Shown piece by piece: positions 29,905 to 48,501 of a stretch of DNA of 64,000 nucleotides. How positions within the stretch are numbered: the first letter of the stretch is position 1; each line of letters opens with the position of its first letter. The position numbers were made by a program, and so were the translations under genes. Under the pieces are notes generated by a model that had not been told where the DNA came from, searched no databases, and saw only the letters and a program-made list of their open reading frames with translations. The stretch spans positions 186,001 through 250,000 of the forward strand of contig NZ_JWHL01000001.1 of NCBI RefSeq assembly GCF_018132105.1, read 5' to 3'. This DNA is from Methanocalculus chunghsingensis (GTDB lineage Archaea; Halobacteriota; Methanomicrobia; Methanomicrobiales; Methanocorpusculaceae).

Positions 29905-31371
29905 TTGGATACGACCCTGCGTGATGGTGAACAGACACCAGGGGTATCGCTTAAGCCTGAAGATAAGCTGAGCATTGCAACACTCCTCTCTGACATTGGT
30001 GTTGATGTCATCGAGGTCGGCTCTGCCGCCGCATCAGATGGTGAACGAGAGTCTCTCCGACTTATATCAGATACAGGACTGAAGGCAGAGATCTGTACAT
30101 TTGTTCGTGGAGTGAAGCTCGATATCGATTATGCCGCAGATTATGGTGCTGATTCAGTACATCTCGTCATCCCTGTCTCTGATCTTCATATCGAGAAGAA
30201 GCTGAGGAAGGATCGTGAGTATGTCACGAAGATGGCCTGGGACTCGGTTGAGTACGCAAAGGATCGCGGGCTGATCGTCGAACTCTCCGGGGAAGATGCA
30301 TCACGGGCAGATCCGGAATATCTTCTGAATCTCTACGCAGGAGGTGTCGAAAGGGGTGCTGATCGCCTCTGCTTCTGTGATACCGTCGGTGTGCTCACAC
30401 CGGAGCGTGCAGCAGAGCTCTTACCGCAGTACTGTATCGCTCCCCTCTCCATACATTGCCATAATGACCTTGGAATGGGGCTTGCAACGACCCTTGCCGG
30501 ACTGAAGGCCGGGGCGACATGTGCTCATGTCACGGTAAACGGTCTTGGAGAGCGGGCAGGAAACACGCCACTTGAGGATCTTGTGATGTCGCTTGAGGTA
30601 CTGTATGGTCTTGATACCGGGATCAATACCGAGGAGATCTATCATCTCTCCACCCTCGTCTCACGGCTGACCCGGGTTCCACTCCCCACAAACAAGTCAA
30701 TCGTCGGGGAGATGGCATTTACTCACGAGAGTGGCATCCATGCTCATGGTATCCTCCGCGACTCAGCAACCTATGAGCCGATCAGCCCGGAGCTGGTCGG
30801 GAGGAAGCGGCGGATCCTGCTTGGGAAACATTCAGGGAGTGCTTCAGTGGAGGCAGCCCTCTCCGAGATGGGATACATTATCGAGCCGAGACAGCTCCAG
30901 GAGATTGTCGCACGGGTAAAAAAGCTTGGGGATGATGGAAAACGGGTTACAGACTCGGATCTCCATGCCATCGCCGAGGCGGTCCTTGACATCTCCTGTA
31001 CTCCTGTCATCAGGATGAAACAGTATACGACCGTCTCTGGAAACAGCGTCATGCCGACGGCATCTGTGACCCTCTTTGTCAATGGAGATGAGATCACGCA
31101 GGCATCGACCGGTGCCGGTCCTGTTGACGCAGTCATTATGGCACTTCGGAAGGCAGTACAGGATGTGGGTGATATCACCCTTGAGGAGTATCATGTCGAT
31201 GCCATCTATGGCGGAACCGATGCTCTTGTAGATGTGACCGTCACATTACGCAAGGACGGAGAGTTGATTACCTCCCGCGGCGCACGGACAGATATTGTCA
31301 TGGCGTCTGTGGAGGCTATGATATCTGGAATGAACAGATTATTGAGGAAGAGAGATGAAGACCGGGGCTAA
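29905..31371 (+). CDS. cimA: (R)-citramalate synthase / isopropylmalate synthase family
   Basis: A 488-residue HMGL-like synthase: DTTLRDGEQTPGVSL (metal Asp, catalytic Arg), SIHCHNDLGMGLATTLAG with the metal-binding HxH, GLGERAGNTPLED, GIHAHGILRDSATYEPISP and a C-terminal LeuA allosteric domain ending near MNRLLRKR. Close in pattern to Methanocaldococcus CimA, which condenses pyruvate with acetyl-CoA for isoleucine. ilvB-ilvN follow, which supports that role, but LeuA and AksA paralogues look alike. Odd: the only standard start (TTG 29905) falls inside the first strand; in-frame sequence upstream (VNRPRI) matches the missing residues but has no ATG, GTG or TTG before a stop. Confidence 0.75.
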   Translation: MDTTLRDGEQTPGVSLKPEDKLSIATLLSDIGVDVIEVGSAAASDGERESLRLISDTGLKAEICTFVRGVKLDIDYAADYGADSVHLVIPVSDLHIEKKLRKDREYVTKMAWDSVEYAKDRGLIVELSGEDASRADPEYLLNLYAGGVERGADRLCFCDTVGVLTPERAAELLPQYCIAPLSIHCHNDLGMGLATTLAGLKAGATCAHVTVNGLGERAGNTPLEDLVMSLEVLYGLDTGINTEEIYHLSTLVSRLTRVPLPTNKSIVGEMAFTHESGIHAHGILRDSATYEPISPELVGRKRRILLGKHSGSASVEAALSEMGYIIEPRQLQEIVARVKKLGDDGKRVTDSDLHAIAEAVLDISCTPVIRMKQYTTVSGNSVMPTASVTLFVNGDEITQASTGAGPVDAVIMALRKAVQDVGDITLEEYHVDAIYGGTDALVDVTVTLRKDGELITSRGARTDIVMASVEAMISGMNRLLRKRDEDRG

Positions 31372-33028
31372 ATTACTGGTTGAAGGACTGATAAAGCAGG
31401 GAGTAACGACCATCTTTGGATACCCCGGCGGCGTAGTACTCCCCCTCTATGACGAGCTCTACGACTCCCCCCTCCGCCATATCCTGGTCCGGCATGAACA
31501 GGCGGCTGCGCATGCGGCTGATGGGTATGCACGTGCATCAGGAAGGATTGGTGTCTGCCTGGCAACATCCGGTCCGGGGGCCTGCAATCTCGTTACAGGA
31601 ATTGCAACGGCGTATATGGACTCCGTTCCGGTGGTTGCACTCACCGGGCAGGTTCCGACCTCCATGCTCGGAAATGACGCTTTCCAGGAGTCTGATATCA
31701 CTGGTATCACGATGCCGGTGACGAAACATAATTATCTCGTCAAAAGAGCCGAGGATCTTGACGGCATCGTCCGTGAGGCATTTCATATCGCCGGAACGGG
31801 ACGACAGGGTCCAGTCCTGATCGACATTCCAAAAGATGTCCTGACGAATCAGGCACCTGATCCCGGACCTCCTGAGGATATTGTGAGGAGGGGGTATAAT
31901 CCGACCCTGAAAGGTCATCTCCGGCAGATCGAGAAGGCACTCTCTCTCATCGCAGATGCACAGCGGCCGATCATCTATGCGGGTGGTGGTGTGATCGCCT
32001 CCGATGCGTCAGCTGAACTGATTCGGTTTGTAGAGATGACCGGTATTCCGGTGACGACAACCCTGATGGGGATCGGTGCTCTTCCATGCGATCATCCGCT
32101 CAATCTCGGCATGCTCGGGATGCACGGTACCCGGTCTGCCAATTATGCGATCACCGAGTGTGATCTCCTCATCGCAATCGGCGCACGATTCGATGATCGG
32201 GTTACCGGACGGATCGAGTCATTTGCTCCAAACGCAGGTGTCATCCATATTGATATTGATCCAGCGGAGATCGGGAAGAATAAGAAGGTCGATGTCCCGA
32301 TCGTCGGGGACTCACGTTCTATCCTGACATGCCTCATCGATCGCCTACCACAAAAGAAGCAGAGAGGAGCCTGGGATGAGAAATATAATCACTGGAAGGT
32401 GACCTATCCGATGTCCGTGCCGGATGACGGGCATCTCAGACCACAGATGATCATACGTACCCTCTCTGACCTCCTTGATGGAGAGGGGATCATCGTCTCT
32501 GAGGTCGGCCAGAACCAGATGTGGACAGCCCAGCATTTCTGCTTCAAACATCCAAGGACCTGGATCACCTCCGGAGGCCTCGGAACGATGGGATATGGCT
32601 TCCCAGCTGCAATCGGTGCCCACTTTGCACGGCCGGACCTTCCGGTCTTTGATATTGCAGGCGATGGGAGTATCCAGATGAATATTCAGGAGCTTGGAAC
32701 GGTCGCCCAGTATGATATCCCGGTCAAGATTGTTATTTTGAATAACATGTACCTCGGTATGGTCCGGCAATGGCAGGAGCTCTTCTATGACCGCAGGTAT
32801 TCGTACACAGAACTGCCTGAGGTTGACTTCGTCGGAATCGCACGTGCCTATGGCATCGACGGGATGCGTGTTGACTCGGCAGACGGGGTGAGAGAGGCAC
32901 TGACGACCGCCATCGACACCGACGGTGCATTTGTCCTTGACTTCAGAATCGCCCGTGAGGAGAACGTCTTCCCGATGGTGCCAGCAGGTGCTGCCATCAA
33001 TGAGATGATAGGGGGCCAGCAGAAATGA
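31355..33028 (+). CDS. ilvB: Acetolactate synthase, catalytic subunit
   Basis: A 557-residue thiamine-diphosphate enzyme making 2-acetolactate or 2-aceto-2-hydroxybutyrate for valine, leucine and isoleucine. VRHEQAAAHAADGYARASG (about 45) carries the catalytic Glu; GDGSIQMNIQELGTVAQYD followed by NN (about 430-460) is the ThDP/Mg motif. It overlaps cimA by 17 bases and ilvN by four. Confidence 0.95.
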   Translation: MKTGAKLLVEGLIKQGVTTIFGYPGGVVLPLYDELYDSPLRHILVRHEQAAAHAADGYARASGRIGVCLATSGPGACNLVTGIATAYMDSVPVVALTGQVPTSMLGNDAFQESDITGITMPVTKHNYLVKRAEDLDGIVREAFHIAGTGRQGPVLIDIPKDVLTNQAPDPGPPEDIVRRGYNPTLKGHLRQIEKALSLIADAQRPIIYAGGGVIASDASAELIRFVEMTGIPVTTTLMGIGALPCDHPLNLGMLGMHGTRSANYAITECDLLIAIGARFDDRVTGRIESFAPNAGVIHIDIDPAEIGKNKKVDVPIVGDSRSILTCLIDRLPQKKQRGAWDEKYNHWKVTYPMSVPDDGHLRPQMIIRTLSDLLDGEGIIVSEVGQNQMWTAQHFCFKHPRTWITSGGLGTMGYGFPAAIGAHFARPDLPVFDIAGDGSIQMNIQELGTVAQYDIPVKIVILNNMYLGMVRQWQELFYDRRYSYTELPEVDFVGIARAYGIDGMRVDSADGVREALTTAIDTDGAFVLDFRIAREENVFPMVPAGAAINEMIGGQQK

Positions 33029-33525
33029 AGACTCATACCCTCTCAATCCTTGTTGAAAACCGTGCCGGTGTCCTCTCCAGGGTCTCCGGGATGTTCTCAC
33101 GGCGTGGATTCAACATTGAGAGCCTTGCGGTCGGTACCTGTGAGCAGCCCGAGATGAGCCGGATCACCATCACCGTCAGGGGTGATGATCCCGTCATTGA
33201 ACAGGTGAAAAAGCAGTTAAACAAGCTCATCGATGTCATCAAGGTCTCAGACATTACCTATCGGGAGCATGTCAGGCGGGAGCTGGCACTCATCAAGGTA
33301 GCTGCGAGCCCCGGGACGACCCGCGCCGAGGTGATGCAGATTGCCGATATCTTCAGGGCGCAGATCATCGATGTCGGGACAAAGACCCTCGTCCTTCAGG
33401 TCGTCGGCGATCCTGATAAGATCGATGCCCTTGAGACGTTGCTCAGGCAGTACGGGGTCAAGGAACTGGTCCGTACAGGAACGATCGCCGTCCTGCGTGG
33501 GGCAAAGACCTCAGCAGGAGACTGA
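33025..33525 (+). CDS. ilvN: Acetolactate synthase, regulatory subunit
   Basis: A 166-residue protein with an N-terminal ACT domain (HTLSILVENRAGVLSRVSGM, then FSRRGFNIESLAVG) for valine feedback and the IlvN C-terminal domain (FRAQIIDVGTKTLVLQVVGD). Coupled to ilvB by ATGA. Normal length. Confidence 0.95.
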   Translation: MKTHTLSILVENRAGVLSRVSGMFSRRGFNIESLAVGTCEQPEMSRITITVRGDDPVIEQVKKQLNKLIDVIKVSDITYREHVRRELALIKVAASPGTTRAEVMQIADIFRAQIIDVGTKTLVLQVVGDPDKIDALETLLRQYGVKELVRTGTIAVLRGAKTSAGD

Positions 33526-38740: not shown

Positions 38741-38831
38741 ATACCCTGATCACCGGTATGAACAGATAATTGTGATGCTCGGAGAGGGTTCAGAAAGTAT
38801 AACGGTTCATGGATTGAAAGAGTACCTGACA

Positions 38832-40352
38832 ATGGAAGAGAAGTATTCATTCATCGCCAGGATGCCGGATGAGCCGGGCTCCCTCATCAAGGCGGCGGAT
38901 CTTATCAGGCAGCAGAATGGCAATATCAACCGGATTCAGTTTGACAGGAGGATCGATAAAAATACGGTCTTCTTTGAGATGACCGCAACTAAAGAGAGGT
39001 ATGAGAAAATCAGGGAAAGTCTTGGACACATCGGCTATCTCCAGTCCAGTATCCCTCCGGTGAATATCCTCCTCTTCCACATCTATCTTCCGATGCCACA
39101 CCAGCCCGGCGCCCTCTATGATGTCCTCAATACCTGTGCAGAAGCAGGGGCGGATGTTGCCGGAATCGACTTCGATGATACCGGGCGGCATCCGGATCGC
39201 CTGACGATTCGTCTCAATGTCATCGACTCTCCAAAGGTCGATGAAGTGATCAATACCATCAAGAGCAGATACCGGCTTGAGATCCTCGAGTATGATACCC
39301 TCGGCGAAGCGCTGGATGAGACGGTCTTTTATATCTGTTTCGCCCAGAAGATTCGTCCTTTCATCGGAGAGATGGATGATGACTTCCTTCTGCCTTTCCT
39401 CGGCGATATCAATCATGTTGTTCAGGAGCTGACAAACCGGGGCGAGGATCCACACCTCGTCTTTGAGAAGATTCACCGGATCGGGACGTTCCTCGCTGAA
39501 ACAACCGGCCCCGGATTCTATGCCGATCTTCAGCAGATCGCGGTTACCGGGGACTGTCACCTCACCTGCATCCAGCCTCCTGGTGGTGGCAGCATCTTCC
39601 TCCTTGATATCGGTGGTGAACGGCTGATGATCGATACCGGGTATGGCATCTATCATGAGGATATCGAACGTCTCCTCTTTGAAGCCGGGCTAAATGGGTT
39701 TGGGGATATTTCTCGCCTCATCTGTACCCATGCAGATGCAGATCACTGCGGAGGTTCAGGTTTCATTCCGGTAAAATCCCATCTCCATCATGGAACCGCT
39801 GCAATCATCGACTGCTCAAACCGGGGGTATGGCTCACGCAGCGAAGGCCTGATCCTGGAAGCCGTCTATACAGAGATCATCAATCTCTTCTCGCGGTTCA
39901 CCCCACCTGAAGATCCGGTCCTCTTCCCATCTACAGTCCCTGGCTATCGGGGAATCTTTCCGATCATAGATAGCTTCACCCTCGCCGGTCACCGGTTTGA
40001 GGTCCTTGAGAGTCTCGGTGGTCATATCTATGGGCAGGTCTTTCTCCTTGCCCCGGATCTCGGCCTTCTCTTCACAAGTGATGCCCTGATGAATTTTGGA
40101 AGCCTGACTGAGGATCGGAAGGAGTATAATTCAATTGCCGATTTCCTCGTCACCTCGGTCAATGTGGACTCTGATCTTGCACGGCAGGAGCGGCGGGCAT
40201 TGCTCGAACTGGCGGAGGAGATCGATAGCGCAATGAAACAGAGGGGAGGACGCTGCATCATCTGCGGAGGCCATGGTGCCGTCTCTATCCTCGATGATGA
40301 TGGCAGAATGACTGCGTATGGAGAGATCAGGACATACCGCCATCCTGCATAA
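38832..40352 (+). CDS. ACT-ACT-metallo-beta-lactamase fusion protein
   Basis: With ATG 38832 the product is 506 residues; GTG/ATG at 38772/38775 would add about 20. Residues 5-75 (KYSFIARMPDEPGSLIKAAD) form one ACT domain and about 85-165 (FHIYLPMPHQPGALYDVLNT) a second. A spacer is followed by a metallo-beta-lactamase domain from about 245: LLDIGGERLMIDTGYG, metal motif THADADHCGG (H300-H305), then ESLGGHIYGQVFLL and a C-terminal CGGHG. The metal motif is HxDxDH, with Asp in place of the middle His. ACT domains bind small ligands, often amino acids, so a hydrolase gated by a metabolite is likely. I know of no defined function. Confidence 0.7.
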   Translation: MEEKYSFIARMPDEPGSLIKAADLIRQQNGNINRIQFDRRIDKNTVFFEMTATKERYEKIRESLGHIGYLQSSIPPVNILLFHIYLPMPHQPGALYDVLNTCAEAGADVAGIDFDDTGRHPDRLTIRLNVIDSPKVDEVINTIKSRYRLEILEYDTLGEALDETVFYICFAQKIRPFIGEMDDDFLLPFLGDINHVVQELTNRGEDPHLVFEKIHRIGTFLAETTGPGFYADLQQIAVTGDCHLTCIQPPGGGSIFLLDIGGERLMIDTGYGIYHEDIERLLFEAGLNGFGDISRLICTHADADHCGGSGFIPVKSHLHHGTAAIIDCSNRGYGSRSEGLILEAVYTEIINLFSRFTPPEDPVLFPSTVPGYRGIFPIIDSFTLAGHRFEVLESLGGHIYGQVFLLAPDLGLLFTSDALMNFGSLTEDRKEYNSIADFLVTSVNVDSDLARQERRALLELAEEIDSAMKQRGGRCIICGGHGAVSILDDDGRMTAYGEIRTYRHPA

Positions 40353-42632: not shown

Positions 42633-44063
42633 TCACCGGCGGTCAATGATCCGTTTCGGCCTCCCCGGAACTTTATACAGCTCAAGCTCACCAGGCCCGG
42701 TGAAATGGAAGAGGATCTCAAGCGATCCACTATTATATAGCTCTTGTAGCTCTGGTTTGAACCGGAAGAATGCCTTCAGGAAGACCTCCTGGATCATATC
42801 TGTATCCGTTGTCTTTGGATCGTTGCATTCAAGACTCACACGGAGGATCGTTGTGTCTGTATCTCTTCCTCCATAGAGGAAGGCTTCATACTCACCGGTA
42901 AGATACTCCATATTCTCCTTCTGAAAAACTCCCCGCTCGACATCGACGCGGCAGAAGGATCGACCCTCAACCCAGAACCGTTCACCCTCACGCTCAGGTG
43001 TTTTAATCCGGAGTGATGTCCTCCCACAGATACACCGATCACGCGAGACGACCGCAGTTGCATCCTCAGTATCATAATTAATGAGCAGTGTTCCGCATCG
43101 TTCCCCTACAGGCAGGAGTTTTGTTAAGATGATCCGCCCGTACTCTCCGTCTTTTACAAAGTGATCCATCCGGGGGTTATAGAGATCCATGTGGATGAGA
43201 TCCTCGGGGACATGAAGGCCTGCTTTTGCATAACACTCCCCGCACATCGTCCCCTCAGTACTCCCATAGGTATTATACACCTCACAGCCCCATAGGCTCG
43301 ACATATAGGTCCGGGACGCCTCGGCAAAGCTCTCCCCCCCGACGACGAGCCTCTCGACCCCGGAGGTCTTTGGATCAATCCCCTCTGCAGTCAGCCGCCT
43401 GGCAAGCCGGATCAATTTGAAGACCGATCCGATGATAACAGTCGGCTTGTAGTTCTTCACCACCCGGACAGGAAATGTGCACTTTCCTTCCGGGATGATG
43501 GTACTCCCTGTCCGGCGTGCGGCGAGCGTCATCATATTTGCACCGACATTCATCCCGTAGCTTGCACAGACGACGATCCGATCCCCGGGAGCAATCCCAT
43601 ACGATCGGAAGATACGTGCGTACTTCTCTGAGTACCGAAGCCAGTCCTGCCATGTGAGAAAGAAGGCCTTTGGTGCCCCCGAGGTTCCGCTCGTTTCATG
43701 AATGGTATAGATCTCGTTCATTCGTGCGGAGAGAAATTCAAAACGTTCTGTGACGGGAGGCTGATTATTCCGGATTGTGCTCCCCGAGATGATAGGAAGC
43801 TCCAGGAGATCTTCGTGCTCCCTGATCGAGGAGATATCGATGGCATGCTCTCTGAACCATTTGCGATAGAACGGGGAATGTTCATTTGCGTAGTGAATGG
43901 TATATCTGACTCTTTCATCGATGACTGCATCAAGCTCGTCACGCGGCATCGTCTCGATCTTCTCGCGGAAATACCCTGTCTCGCCCATACGCTTTTTGAT
44001 GCTATATGACCGGATATATCTTATCATAGACCGGGGAAGGTATTGGATCGCTTCTTTTTTCAA
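42633..44063 (-). CDS. Phenylacetate-CoA ligase / coenzyme F390 synthetase-like protein
   Basis: A 476-residue PaaK-type adenylate-forming enzyme: HETSGTSGAPKAFFLTWQDW (P-loop), TYGSTEGTMCGECYAK, and a Cys pair (DRCICGRTS). Relatives include phenylacetate-CoA ligase and coenzyme F390 synthetase (FtsA), which adenylates or guanylates F420. Which it is cannot be settled by eye. The start at 44063 is a TTG; an ATG 36 bases in (MIRYIRS) is possible. Divergent from mutS by only 25 bases, so promoters overlap. Confidence 0.7.
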   Translation of the reverse strand: MKKEAIQYLPRSMIRYIRSYSIKKRMGETGYFREKIETMPRDELDAVIDERVRYTIHYANEHSPFYRKWFREHAIDISSIREHEDLLELPIISGSTIRNNQPPVTERFEFLSARMNEIYTIHETSGTSGAPKAFFLTWQDWLRYSEKYARIFRSYGIAPGDRIVVCASYGMNVGANMMTLAARRTGSTIIPEGKCTFPVRVVKNYKPTVIIGSVFKLIRLARRLTAEGIDPKTSGVERLVVGGESFAEASRTYMSSLWGCEVYNTYGSTEGTMCGECYAKAGLHVPEDLIHMDLYNPRMDHFVKDGEYGRIILTKLLPVGERCGTLLINYDTEDATAVVSRDRCICGRTSLRIKTPEREGERFWVEGRSFCRVDVERGVFQKENMEYLTGEYEAFLYGGRDTDTTILRVSLECNDPKTTDTDMIQEVFLKAFFRFKPELQELYNSGSLEILFHFTGPGELELYKVPGRPKRIIDRR

Positions 44064-44088
44064 TGCACAGATACGATCAGGTATAGGA

Positions 44089-46713
44089 ATGGCATCTCAT
44101 ACACAACTGACCCCGGCGATGAAGCAGTTCTGGGATATGAAGAATCAGTATCCTGACTGTATTCTCCTTGTCAGGATGGGGGATTTTTACGAGACGTTTT
44201 ATGAGGATGCAGTGACCTGTGCACGGGAACTCGACATCGTCCTGACGACACGATCAAAAGATCCCGAGGGGAATCCCATCGCACTTGCGGGTGTGCCGTA
44301 CCATGCCGCAGAGACCTACATCCCACGTCTGGTGCGAAAAGGGTACCGGGTTGCCATCTGCGAACAGGTTGAGGATCCAAAGAAGGCAAAAGGTGTGGTG
44401 AAACGGGATGTTGTCCGGGTTGTGACCCCGGGGTGCGCCATCGACCCGATGATCATCGATGCTCCGGAGTCACGGTACCTGATGGCGATCCTACCGGACA
44501 GGAAGAACGAGTCCTTCGGCATCGCCTGTCTTGAGCTATCAACTGGTGAATTCTTCGTCAGGATGATTCAGAAAGGCGAGGGGAGAATGGGGATCGCCTC
44601 TCTCATCGAGGCGTCCCGGCCTGCTGAGTGTCTCATCCCTGAACGGACCGATCCGGCAGTTACCAGCCTTATCGCCTCTCTTGGGGTAGTCATTACCGAG
44701 CGGAGTCCGGCAGAGTTCGATCCCGCAGATAGCGATACCATCCTCTGCCGGCAGTTCGGTGTCGCATCGCTGGAAGGGTTTGGCCTCCGTGAGATGCCAT
44801 TAGCTGTGGGTGCTGCAGGTGCTGCTTTCTCCTATGCAACCCGTACACAGAAGACTGCACTTCCGCACCTCTCAGAGATCAGGGTGATGCAGCCATCTGA
44901 GGGGATGATCCTGGATGCCGTCACCCAGAGAAACCTTGAGATCACCCGGACAGAACGTGGCGAAAAGAGTCGTTCAACCCTCCTTGGCACGCTTGATCTG
45001 ACGAAGAGCCCGATGGGACGGCGGCGACTCTCAATGGAGATTACCGCACCCCTGACCAGCATATCCGCCATAAATGAACGTCTTGATCTGGTGGAGTGGT
45101 TCATACATCACCCCTTGATCCGATCAGATATTGAAGATCTATTGTCAGAGTGCAGCGATATTGAGCGGATCGCAGGGAGGATCGCCTATGGAAATGCATC
45201 CCCACGTGATCTCCTCTCCCTCGCGGGATCCCTTTCGTCTCTTGTGAGGATCAGAACCTGTCTCTCCGGAGAGGTACCTCCTCTTATGGATAAACTCTCC
45301 CGGGATATCGGACAGTTCGGGGATATCATTGCGCTGATCGAATCTGCAATCGCAGATGACCCCCCGCTCCTCATCCGAAACGGTGGTGTCATCCGTGAGG
45401 GTTATGATCCAACCCTCGACGAGCTCCGGAAGACAGCCGGCTCCGGGAGAGAATGGATTCTTACCCTCCAGCAGTCTGAGCGGGAACGGACCGGGATTAA
45501 ATCGCTGAAGATCGCGTATAATCAGGTATTTGGGTATTATATAGAAGTGACGAAGCCGAATCTCACAAAGGTTCCTCCTGAGTATGAGAGGAAGCAGACG
45601 ACGGCGACAGGGGAGCGTTTTACGCTTCCTGAACTTCGTGAATATGAGCGGACGATTGCCACCGCCGATGAACGGGCACTCCTCCGGGAGGCAGAACTTT
45701 ACATACACCTCATCGAGGAACTCCGCCCGATGGTTCCGGCGTTTCAGAAGGCGGCACGGGCAACGGGGATGATCGATCTCCTCCTCTCATTTGCCCTGGT
45801 TGCAGAGAGGCAGGGGTACACACGCCCGGGCCTGACCGGGGGCGGATCTATCCGGATACGTGGAGGCCGCCATCCCGTCGTCGAGTCGACGGTTACCGGC
45901 GGGTACGTCCCGAATGATACAGACCTCGATACCGTCGGGGATCAGATCCTGATCCTCACAGGGGCGAATATGGCGGGAAAATCCACGTATATGCGTTCTG
46001 TAGCCCTCATCTGTATTATGGCACAGACCGGGAGCTTCGTTCCGGCAGATGCAGCAGAGATCGGGGTGATAGATCGGATATTCACCCGTGTCGGTGCCTC
46101 AGATGATCTCGCAGGCGGGCAGAGCACCTTCATGGTCGAGATGGTGGAGCTTGCATCCATCCTCAGGAATGCCACTGAGCGGAGCCTTATCCTGCTTGAT
46201 GAGATCGGGCGGGGAACGAGTACCGTCGATGGATACAGCATCGCCAGATCCGTCCTTGAGTACCTTCATGGCAAGCGGCCCTCAGGGCCTAAGACCCTCT
46301 TTGCAACACATTTCCATCGGCTCGTCGAGGTTGAGGGGGAGTTATCCCGGGTCCGGAACTACCACTTTGCTGTCAGAGAGACAGAGAAAGAGATCACGTT
46401 CCTTCGAAAACTCATCCCGGGTGCGACAGATCGGAGCTATGGTATCCATGTCGCACGTATTGCCGGTGTCCCAGAGAAGGTTCTCATCCGTGCGGATTCG
46501 ATTCTGAAAGAGGTGCTTGAAGAAGAGGAGCGGGGAGGAACAGAAGGCAGGCGGAGGCCCCGGTATACCCAGCTCCTCATCTCTGATCTGAGTCAGGAGA
46601 AACCTCCGGAGAGTCCTGTCCTTGCAGAACTACGGCAGATAGATATCGATCGTCTCAGTCCCATTGAGGCGTTGAATATCCTTTCTGACCTGAAGAAGAG
46701 AGCTGGTGATTAG
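44089..46713 (+). CDS. mutS: DNA mismatch repair protein MutS
   Basis: An 874-residue MutS1: N-terminal mismatch-binding MGDFYETFYEDA (Phe-x-Glu wedge, about residue 28), connector, clamp and lever domains, then ATPase LTGANMAGKSTYMRSV (Walker A), SLILLDEIGRGTST (Walker B) and ATHFHRL. A longer frame from 43897 runs through the divergent gene and is not used. It recognises mispairs and recruits MutL. Bacterial-type MutSL is found in some methanogens and halophiles. Confidence 0.96.
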   Translation: MASHTQLTPAMKQFWDMKNQYPDCILLVRMGDFYETFYEDAVTCARELDIVLTTRSKDPEGNPIALAGVPYHAAETYIPRLVRKGYRVAICEQVEDPKKAKGVVKRDVVRVVTPGCAIDPMIIDAPESRYLMAILPDRKNESFGIACLELSTGEFFVRMIQKGEGRMGIASLIEASRPAECLIPERTDPAVTSLIASLGVVITERSPAEFDPADSDTILCRQFGVASLEGFGLREMPLAVGAAGAAFSYATRTQKTALPHLSEIRVMQPSEGMILDAVTQRNLEITRTERGEKSRSTLLGTLDLTKSPMGRRRLSMEITAPLTSISAINERLDLVEWFIHHPLIRSDIEDLLSECSDIERIAGRIAYGNASPRDLLSLAGSLSSLVRIRTCLSGEVPPLMDKLSRDIGQFGDIIALIESAIADDPPLLIRNGGVIREGYDPTLDELRKTAGSGREWILTLQQSERERTGIKSLKIAYNQVFGYYIEVTKPNLTKVPPEYERKQTTATGERFTLPELREYERTIATADERALLREAELYIHLIEELRPMVPAFQKAARATGMIDLLLSFALVAERQGYTRPGLTGGGSIRIRGGRHPVVESTVTGGYVPNDTDLDTVGDQILILTGANMAGKSTYMRSVALICIMAQTGSFVPADAAEIGVIDRIFTRVGASDDLAGGQSTFMVEMVELASILRNATERSLILLDEIGRGTSTVDGYSIARSVLEYLHGKRPSGPKTLFATHFHRLVEVEGELSRVRNYHFAVRETEKEITFLRKLIPGATDRSYGIHVARIAGVPEKVLIRADSILKEVLEEEERGGTEGRRRPRYTQLLISDLSQEKPPESPVLAELRQIDIDRLSPIEALNILSDLKKRAGD

Positions 46714-48501
46714 ATGATGGACAATCCAGTCATCCATATTCTTGATGAAGAGACCGTCTCACATATCGCGGCAGGAGAGGTTGTGGAACGGCCGGCATCG
46801 GTTGTGAAGGAACTGGTTGAGAATGCAATCGATGCCGGGGCGTCGAGGATCCGCATCGATATCAGGAGTGACCGGAGCGAGGTCAGACGTATCATCGTCA
46901 CCGATAACGGCATCGGGATGAGTCCGGATGATGCCGAACGTGCTTTTCGACAGCATGCAACGAGCAAGATCAAAACCGCAGACGATCTCGGACTCATCCG
47001 GACACTGGGGTTTCGGGGTGAGGCACTTGCAAGCATCGCTGCAATATCCGAAGTCGTCCTCTCCACGAGAAGAAGAGATGATATTGCAGGAACAGAGGTT
47101 CACCTCTCAGGTGGGGCGATCACCTCAGTTTCTGAGTGTGGAACACCCCCGGGGACGATCCTCGAGGTCTCCGGCCTCTTCTTCAACACACCTGCACGGA
47201 GAAAGTTCCAGAGGACCATCTCAACGGAGCTTGCCCATATCTTCGATATGGTGGAGCGGACGGCACTCTCACATCCCGGGGTCTCTTTTCAGCTCCTTCA
47301 CCAGGAGAAGGAGAAGTTCCGGACCTCAGGACGGGGGGATCTCCTTGATACGATTCAGAGCCTCTTTGGGGCAGATCTCTCCCGCCGACTCATTGAGGTT
47401 CTGCCAGCTCCGGGTGGAATCTCCATATCCGGGTTTATAGCGTACCCTCTTGTATCACAGAGGGGGAGATCCTCGGTGTATCTCTCGGTGAATGGTCGCC
47501 AGATAACCTCTCCCTCCCTTGCACGTGCGATCCGGGATGGCTTTGGGGAGAGTCTCCCAAAGGGTGAATATCCGTTTGCTGTCATCGACTGCAGGATGGA
47601 TCCCGAAGAGGTCGATGTGAACGTCCATCCAACCAAGAAGGAGGTCCGGTTTTCATCAGAACGGGCTGTTGCTGATACGGTACGGGGAGCTGTCCGTTCT
47701 GCCCTGACGACCTCGGGTTCATTTCAGGTGCCGGAGATCAGGCAGAATCCGGCACCTGTCCCGATCAGAGATGGGGAACTCCATCATCCGGAACCGGTAT
47801 TACGAACGGCTTCAGGTGCCGTGGAATTCCCCCGGCAGCCCGTCGTCGCCGAAGGAAAGGGTATTTATGGCCGAACCGACCGGCAGCTTCGCCAGACCGA
47901 GCTTCCCAGGAAGAGTCAGGAGATTCCACCCATCCCGTCAGTTCTCGGGCAGATTGATGGAACCTACATCCTCGCCGCGGGAAAGGATGGGGGTCTGCTG
48001 ATCATCGATCAGCATGCAGCGCATGAAAAGATCGTATATGACAATCTCCGGAAGCAGACGGATGGTACAACCGCGTATCAGCATCTCCTTGAACCGGTGA
48101 CGATCAGCCTTTCACGCAAGGATTCAGCCCTTCTCAAGGATGCACTAGAGGATATCGCTTCTGCCGGTATCATCCTTGAGGAGTTCGGTGGTGATACCTG
48201 GATGGTCCGTGCAGTACCGGCAGACGGAGTGAAGCTTGAAGAAGCTGATGAGATCCGATCGCTTCTTCTTGAATTGATTGAGGGTGTTCGGGGACCTGCA
48301 GGGGATCGACGCCTCCGGATGTACCAGACGATCGCCTGCAGAGCAGCGATCAAGGGAAATACCCTCCTCTCACAGGAGCAGATGGAACGACTCCTCTCCC
48401 AGCTCTTCACTGCTGCCCCTCCGTATACCTGCCCCCATGGGAGGCCAGCTGTTATCAGCTATGCGCCATCGGATCTTGAGCAGCTCTTCAGGCGAAGGTA
48501 G
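46714..48501 (+). CDS. mutL: DNA mismatch repair protein MutL
   Basis: A 595-residue GHKL ATPase: VENAIDAGASRIRI and DNGIGM, LGFRGEALASIAAI, and NVHPTKKEVRFS. The C-terminal domain has LIIDQHAAHEKIVYD (compare DQHA-x2-E-x4-E of endonucleolytic MutL; here the last E is D) and YTCPHGRP. This suggests a nicking MutL, fitting the absence of mutH. It starts right after the mutS stop, so the two are coupled. Confidence 0.95.
   Translation: MMDNPVIHILDEETVSHIAAGEVVERPASVVKELVENAIDAGASRIRIDIRSDRSEVRRIIVTDNGIGMSPDDAERAFRQHATSKIKTADDLGLIRTLGFRGEALASIAAISEVVLSTRRRDDIAGTEVHLSGGAITSVSECGTPPGTILEVSGLFFNTPARRKFQRTISTELAHIFDMVERTALSHPGVSFQLLHQEKEKFRTSGRGDLLDTIQSLFGADLSRRLIEVLPAPGGISISGFIAYPLVSQRGRSSVYLSVNGRQITSPSLARAIRDGFGESLPKGEYPFAVIDCRMDPEEVDVNVHPTKKEVRFSSERAVADTVRGAVRSALTTSGSFQVPEIRQNPAPVPIRDGELHHPEPVLRTASGAVEFPRQPVVAEGKGIYGRTDRQLRQTELPRKSQEIPPIPSVLGQIDGTYILAAGKDGGLLIIDQHAAHEKIVYDNLRKQTDGTTAYQHLLEPVTISLSRKDSALLKDALEDIASAGIILEEFGGDTWMVRAVPADGVKLEEADEIRSLLLELIEGVRGPAGDRRLRMYQTIACRAAIKGNTLLSQEQMERLLSQLFTAAPPYTCPHGRPAVISYAPSDLEQLFRRR

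Follow-up and report, generated by a model that had tools for sequence, protein, structure and literature searches.

The gene analyzed here, from Methanocalculus chunghsingensis, encodes a protein of 506 amino acids in which two ACT domains are followed by a conserved helical module and then by an MBL-fold domain that has a full set of predicted metal ligands, and sequence comparisons indicate that these parts are inherited as a unit across the Methanomicrobiales. The best explanation, which we consider moderately probable, is that the protein is an allosterically regulated, amino-acid-gated binuclear metal-dependent hydrolase. The two ACT domains and the MBL fold that an earlier note on this DNA had described are supported, and of the functions that it offered, the metabolite-gated hydrolase is the best reading. 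The parts are ordinary, and the architecture is well conserved and undescribed. In agreement with the note, which knew of no characterized example, no characterized or published ACT-ACT-MBL protein was found in the open-access literature.

The window, i.e., the whole stretch of DNA that was analyzed, is 64,000 nt long, and the open reading frame is present exactly at the position given previously, from its ATG at 38832 to the stop codon at 40352. An in-frame GTG is located upstream at 38772. Nonetheless, the homologues begin at the ATG, and the DNA immediately 5′ of it does not show protein-level conservation among the Methanocalculus orthologues. The opposite strand contains an antisense open frame of 269 aa (38847-39656, minus strand), which is presumably a by-product of coding bias. 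The features of the gene and the protein are listed in Table 1.

Table 1. Features of the ACT-MBL gene and its product, with positions in the window
Feature	Position	Strand	Evidence
ACT-ACT-helical module-MBL protein, 506 aa	38832..40352	+	ORF, translation, Pfam, orthologues across Methanomicrobiales
ACT domain 1 (residues 1-77); conserved N31-I32-x-R34, D42, T45, F47	38832..39062	+	two whole-protein Pfam stretches, conserved columns, low-confidence fold; weak alone
ACT domain 2 (residues 78-157); invariant G93, L99; conserved D113-F-D115	39063..39302	+	PF01842 E 4.4e-6, alignment
Helical linker module (residues 158-238, approximate), also present in homologues without the ACT pair	39303..39545	+	predicted helices, alignment
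MBL-fold domain (Lactamase_B match, residues 250-462; ligand H481 just beyond)	39579..40217	+	PF00753 E 6.4e-12; PDB profile matches
Metal motif H300-A-D302-A-D304-H305	39729..39746	+	all four ligand positions identical in 51 homologues
H398 (GGHxxG), third predicted metal-binding His	40023..40025	+	invariant
D417, predicted to bridge the metals; 18 residues past H398	40080..40082	+	invariant; spacing 18 in 51/51
Signature S442-V-N-x-x-S-x-x-A-x-x-E-R454, possible substrate-binding region	40155..40193	+	S442, V443, N444, R454 invariant; S447, A450, E453 at least 90%
H481 (GHG), last predicted metal ligand	40272..40274	+	invariant

Both halves of the fusion described in the earlier note were recovered with Pfam matches above the cut-offs. 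The ACT profile (PF01842) matched two stretches of the whole protein (E 1.4e-9, 38 bits versus a cut-off of 27), and the profile search that the note had named as a possible refutation thus identified the N-terminal parts as ACT domains. When the protein was split, the piece with the second domain was matched clearly (E 4.4e-6), whereas the piece with the first domain (residues 8-60) was matched weakly and stayed under the cut-off on its own (E 1.1e-3). In an alignment scan, PF01842 was matched in 17 of the 23 aligned family members. For the second domain, threonine dehydratase gave the closest match (TIGR01127, E 7.8e-8), and the nearest solved sequences are likewise ACT domains of threonine dehydratase (PDB, IlvA). 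G93 of the second domain and N31-I32-x-R34 of the first are invariant over the orthologues and a divergent clade, and the PG motif of the first domain is absent in some orthologues and is not conserved in one family.

Structure prediction covered the window protein and four Methanocalculus loci. The two AlphaFold models, a check suggested before, were of low confidence (mean pLDDT 52.5 and 53.1); at this level they contained the beta-alpha-beta-beta-alpha topology of ACT domains twice (AlphaFold2 model) and helices at residues 158-238 (both models). A Foldseek search with a low-confidence model yielded tandem-ACT proteins as top matches (AHAS regulatory subunit, aspartokinase), followed by an MBL. 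Assignment of the N-terminal part to the ACT class agrees with both the whole-protein profile match and this topology in the low-confidence model. The protein resembles ACT-regulated enzymes of amino acid metabolism, such as threonine dehydratase IlvA, the AHAS small subunit, aspartokinase and SerB, where a catalytic part is linked to, or served by, a single ACT domain or a pair of them, but differs from them in that its catalytic domain has the MBL fold.

The large spacer that had been noted between the domains (about residues 157-238) exists, but it is a conserved, predicted helical module and not filler. It is conserved in the alignment also in homologues that lack the ACT pair, and it belongs with the catalytic unit. 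A scan of residues 158-238 against Pfam did not match any family, and the PDB profile matches were mostly designed or generic helical proteins.

The MBL part was matched by PF00753 (Lactamase_B) with 46.3 bits versus a cut-off of 22.7, and the same profile was matched in all 23 aligned family members, which places the protein in the MBL-fold superfamily. HxHxDH is the commonest form of the metal motif in this superfamily, and variants exist. The canonical motif is absent from the family, HxDxDH being found in 51 of 51 homologues, and the remaining ligands are canonical. All seven predicted ligands (H300, D302, D304, H305, H398, D417, and H481) are identical in the 51 homologues, including the ACT-less copies, and HxDxDH is therefore a hallmark of the family and not a sign of decay. 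In the other MBL ORFs retrieved from the genome and from its relatives, the motif, where recognizable, is HxHxDH or HxExDH. Replacement of the middle His by Asp had been reported correctly, but its invariance and a precedent in another protein family argue against an oddity. The precedent is the MBL domain of Moorella glycerini ComEC, in which H598-x-D600-x-D602-H603 binds two Mn2+ and the domain degrades DNA; mutation of most of the metal-coordinating residues left it virtually inactive (PMC12455585). An aspartate variant has likewise been noted for a putative lactonase (PMC6146095).

Profile comparisons with MBLs from the same genomes gave the strongest similarity of the MBL part to HxHxDH hydrolases (178 columns, E 4.8e-12), and the PDB profile matches comprised beta-lactamase II, LACTB2-like proteins, hydroxyacylglutathione hydrolase, paraoxonase-like proteins and RNase J; flavodiiron proteins were not among them. 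The fold and the metal-ligand set are shared with HxHxDH MBL-fold hydrolases (glyoxalase II, class B, and LACTB2-like). In contrast to these, the family has Asp in place of the second His throughout, a longer insert between D304 and H398, and the added helical module and ACT pair. The insert comprises 92-98 residues across the family, while the equivalent distance is usually shorter in HxHxDH hydrolases.

A survey of the domain order, which had been proposed as a further check, revealed that the ACT-MBL architecture is conserved. Of 135 good genomes from the Methanomicrobiales, 131 had a match to the family, and the gene was found in 57 of 61 relatives. The close named relatives are Methanocalculus, including M. 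taiwanensis. Most Methanomicrobiales genomes contain one full-length copy with about 47-92% identity, and the family is largely a one-gene-per-genome family. Elsewhere in the phylum, full-length copies were confined to two Methanosarcina-like genera (g81 and g92); this name, as well as Methanocorpusculum (g2), was derived from kinship. The remaining matches in the phylum were weak and comprised the MBL core or an ACT domain alone. A divergent full-length copy with 25% identity (46% to L041) is encoded on plasmid pNP174 of Methanosphaera ISO3-F5, where it is annotated merely as 'MBL fold metallo-hydrolase'. The bacterial survey covered Pseudomonadota, and 10 of 397 genomes had a match at E <= 1e-10, in each case to the MBL core only. 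A match in Telmatospirillum (L035) turned out to be a chance peptide within an iron-dependent alcohol dehydrogenase-like ORF. No relatives of the ACT-MBL protein were found in the viral contigs searched, nor in the phages searched with the divergent homologue as query. The gene seems to be dispensable in places because broken or partial copies occur in two genomes: one contains frame-split pieces (L046 in G044), and in the other, about 54 N-terminal residues were all that matched (L047 in G034).

The history of the ACT pair was followed with a tree built on the helical module and the MBL part. ACT-less copies from Methanocorpusculum-type genomes (L036-L039) were placed beside Methanocalculus with support values of 96 and 100, nested in an ACT-bearing clade, which shows that the ACT pair was lost in Methanocorpusculum. 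A detached homologous tandem-ACT gene was found in none of the five tested Methanocorpusculum-type genomes that lack the fusion and contain only ACT-less copies, and the pair was thus lost as a unit. Since the close ACT-less homologues keep every metal ligand, the pair can be regarded as a control layer that is removable, and its loss indicates that the catalytic core works without it. A second, divergent clade unites the ACT-bearing copies L041 and L086 with the ACT-less copies L040, L042, and L043. A second ACT loss in this clade is likely but not proven; the support for the ACT-bearing pair is 63% and the branch leading to the clade is long. The Methanosarcina-like copies came out beside this long branch, possibly through an artefact. 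The ACT-less helical-module-MBL genes of the Methanocorpusculum-type genomes (L036-L043) are of two distinct kinds, and many of these genomes have 2 or 3 copies.

The gene neighborhood varies between families, and no operon is conserved beyond single families; the neighbors therefore give no clue to the substrate. The Methanocalculus gene is oriented divergently to an aldehyde dehydrogenase gene and lies near genes for an acyl-CoA synthetase and coenzyme F390 synthetase (42636-44063, minus strand; TIGR03335, 762 bits versus a cut-off of 459). About 5 kb upstream, the large subunit of acetolactate synthase (31355-33525, plus strand) is followed by a 166-aa ORF, which is likely its putative ACT-bearing small subunit. 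Adjacent mutS and mutL genes are present at 43897-48501 (plus strand). The longest possible ORF for MutS extends over the start of the F390 synthetase gene, but the first residue covered by the MutS profile is residue 71; translation of MutS therefore probably starts about 70 codons inside this ORF.

The conserved proximity in Methanocalculus could mean that the ACT-MBL protein is the missing coenzyme F390 hydrolase, which would split the phosphodiester made by the neighboring synthetase. The ten listed Methanocorpusculum-type genomes of the phylum sample, none of which had a match to F390 synthetase, would fit this idea. However, the adjacency is confined to one genus, and the co-distribution is mismatched both ways: the ACT-bearing protein occurs without F390 synthetase in 8 sampled genomes, and 40 Methanosarcina-family genomes outside the two Methanosarcina-like genera contain F390 synthetase without the ACT-MBL protein. 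This identity was rejected and is extremely improbable.

Two further readings concern the nature of the metal site. A flavodiiron or ODP-like diiron protein would bind two irons in the MBL domain and reduce or sense O2 or NO, with the ACT domains as modulators. The window family shares the MBL fold and an acidic second ligand position with flavodiiron proteins and ODP, the site is rendered more acidic by D302, and the hosts are anaerobic. Flavodiiron proteins also have 18 residues between the third His and the Asp, the same number as the window family. Furthermore, Pfam ODP (PF19583) was matched weakly by 13 of 23 homologues (best E 1e-5), and Foldseek with the second low-confidence model listed flavodiiron and ODP structures among the matches, without separating the hydrolase and flavodiiron groups. 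Nevertheless, PF19583 gave no match to the window protein itself, and a genome-wide search with this profile retrieved its separate flavodiiron protein only. In flavodiiron-type ORFs from this genome and from its relatives, the position of D302 is occupied by Glu instead of Asp, in accordance with the HxExDH motif of flavodiiron proteins (PMC6033852). The chain ends after the MBL fold without a flavodoxin Pfam match, and the similarity to flavodiiron profiles (E 6.6e-7, 131 columns) is weaker than that to the HxHxDH hydrolases. Membership was therefore rejected on the basis of Asp for Glu and the lack of a flavodoxin domain, and we regard this reading as quite unlikely. The 'flavodiiron-like relic' suggested earlier is not upheld by these results, and nothing is relic-like because every predicted metal ligand is kept.

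The HxDxDH motif itself leads to the proposal of an amino-acid-gated nuclease or phosphodiesterase of the ComEC type with Mn2+ at the site, which appears unlikely. The motif is common to the window family and the MBL domain of ComEC/Rec2, with its two Mn2+ in the DNA-degrading Moorella glycerini protein (PMC12455585). An ORF that matches TIGR00361 also carries SHPDLDH, weak matches to Avs1a were observed, and RNase J was among the PDB profile matches. In contrast to ComEC/Rec2, the family has no transmembrane part or OB domain, and no DNA-binding domain either. ComEC was missing from the PDB profile matches, and comparison with two ComEC-type ORFs with a recognizable motif gave a weak similarity (E 6.3e-5) confined to 67 columns around the motif. 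Despite the motif, membership in ComEC/Rec2 was rejected, as Pfam and NCBIfam contained no competence-family match and the likeness is confined to the motif region. A different question is whether the ACT pair has a regulatory role at all. It may only dimerize, since the first domain is weak alone and has lost its PG motif in some orthologues; the enzyme would then be a constitutive hydrolase, and the retention of the catalytic site in Methanocorpusculum after loss of the ACT domains would be in line with this. However, the invariant G93 and N31-I32-x-R34 exceed the needs of a plain dimer interface, and a mere scaffold is decidedly unlikely.

For the amino-acid-gated hydrolase, the following mechanism can be envisaged. 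One metal would be held by H300, D302, and H398 and the other by D304, H305, and H481, with D417 as the bridge, and a metal-bound hydroxide would attack the substrate in the manner of other MBL hydrolases. Since D302 is acidic, Mn2+ or Fe2+ may be favored over Zn2+. The ACT pairs would dimerize and bind an amino acid, with the second domain most similar to those of threonine dehydratase, and the helical module would relay the signal to the active site and thereby tune the di-metal hydrolase. The substrate most likely belongs to the small anionic esters, lactones or phosphodiesters of amino acid or coenzyme metabolism.

A more far-reaching view, which is tentative and rather unlikely, is that the proteins form a family of amino-acid-gated MBL enzymes with an Mn2+/Fe2+ HxDxDH site that spans an archaeal order and controls a step of methanogen metabolism filled by no known enzyme, with the ACT layer discarded in some lineages. 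A gene that nearly all Methanomicrobiales have kept, largely as one copy per genome, and whose product combines an invariant active site with an amino acid sensor of its own probably has a basic role. The ACT-bearing proteins of Methanocalculus and the Methanosarcina-like genera and the ACT-less proteins of Methanocorpusculum constitute a natural pair, in which it could be tested directly how control of an MBL enzyme was gained, and later lost, by an ACT layer.
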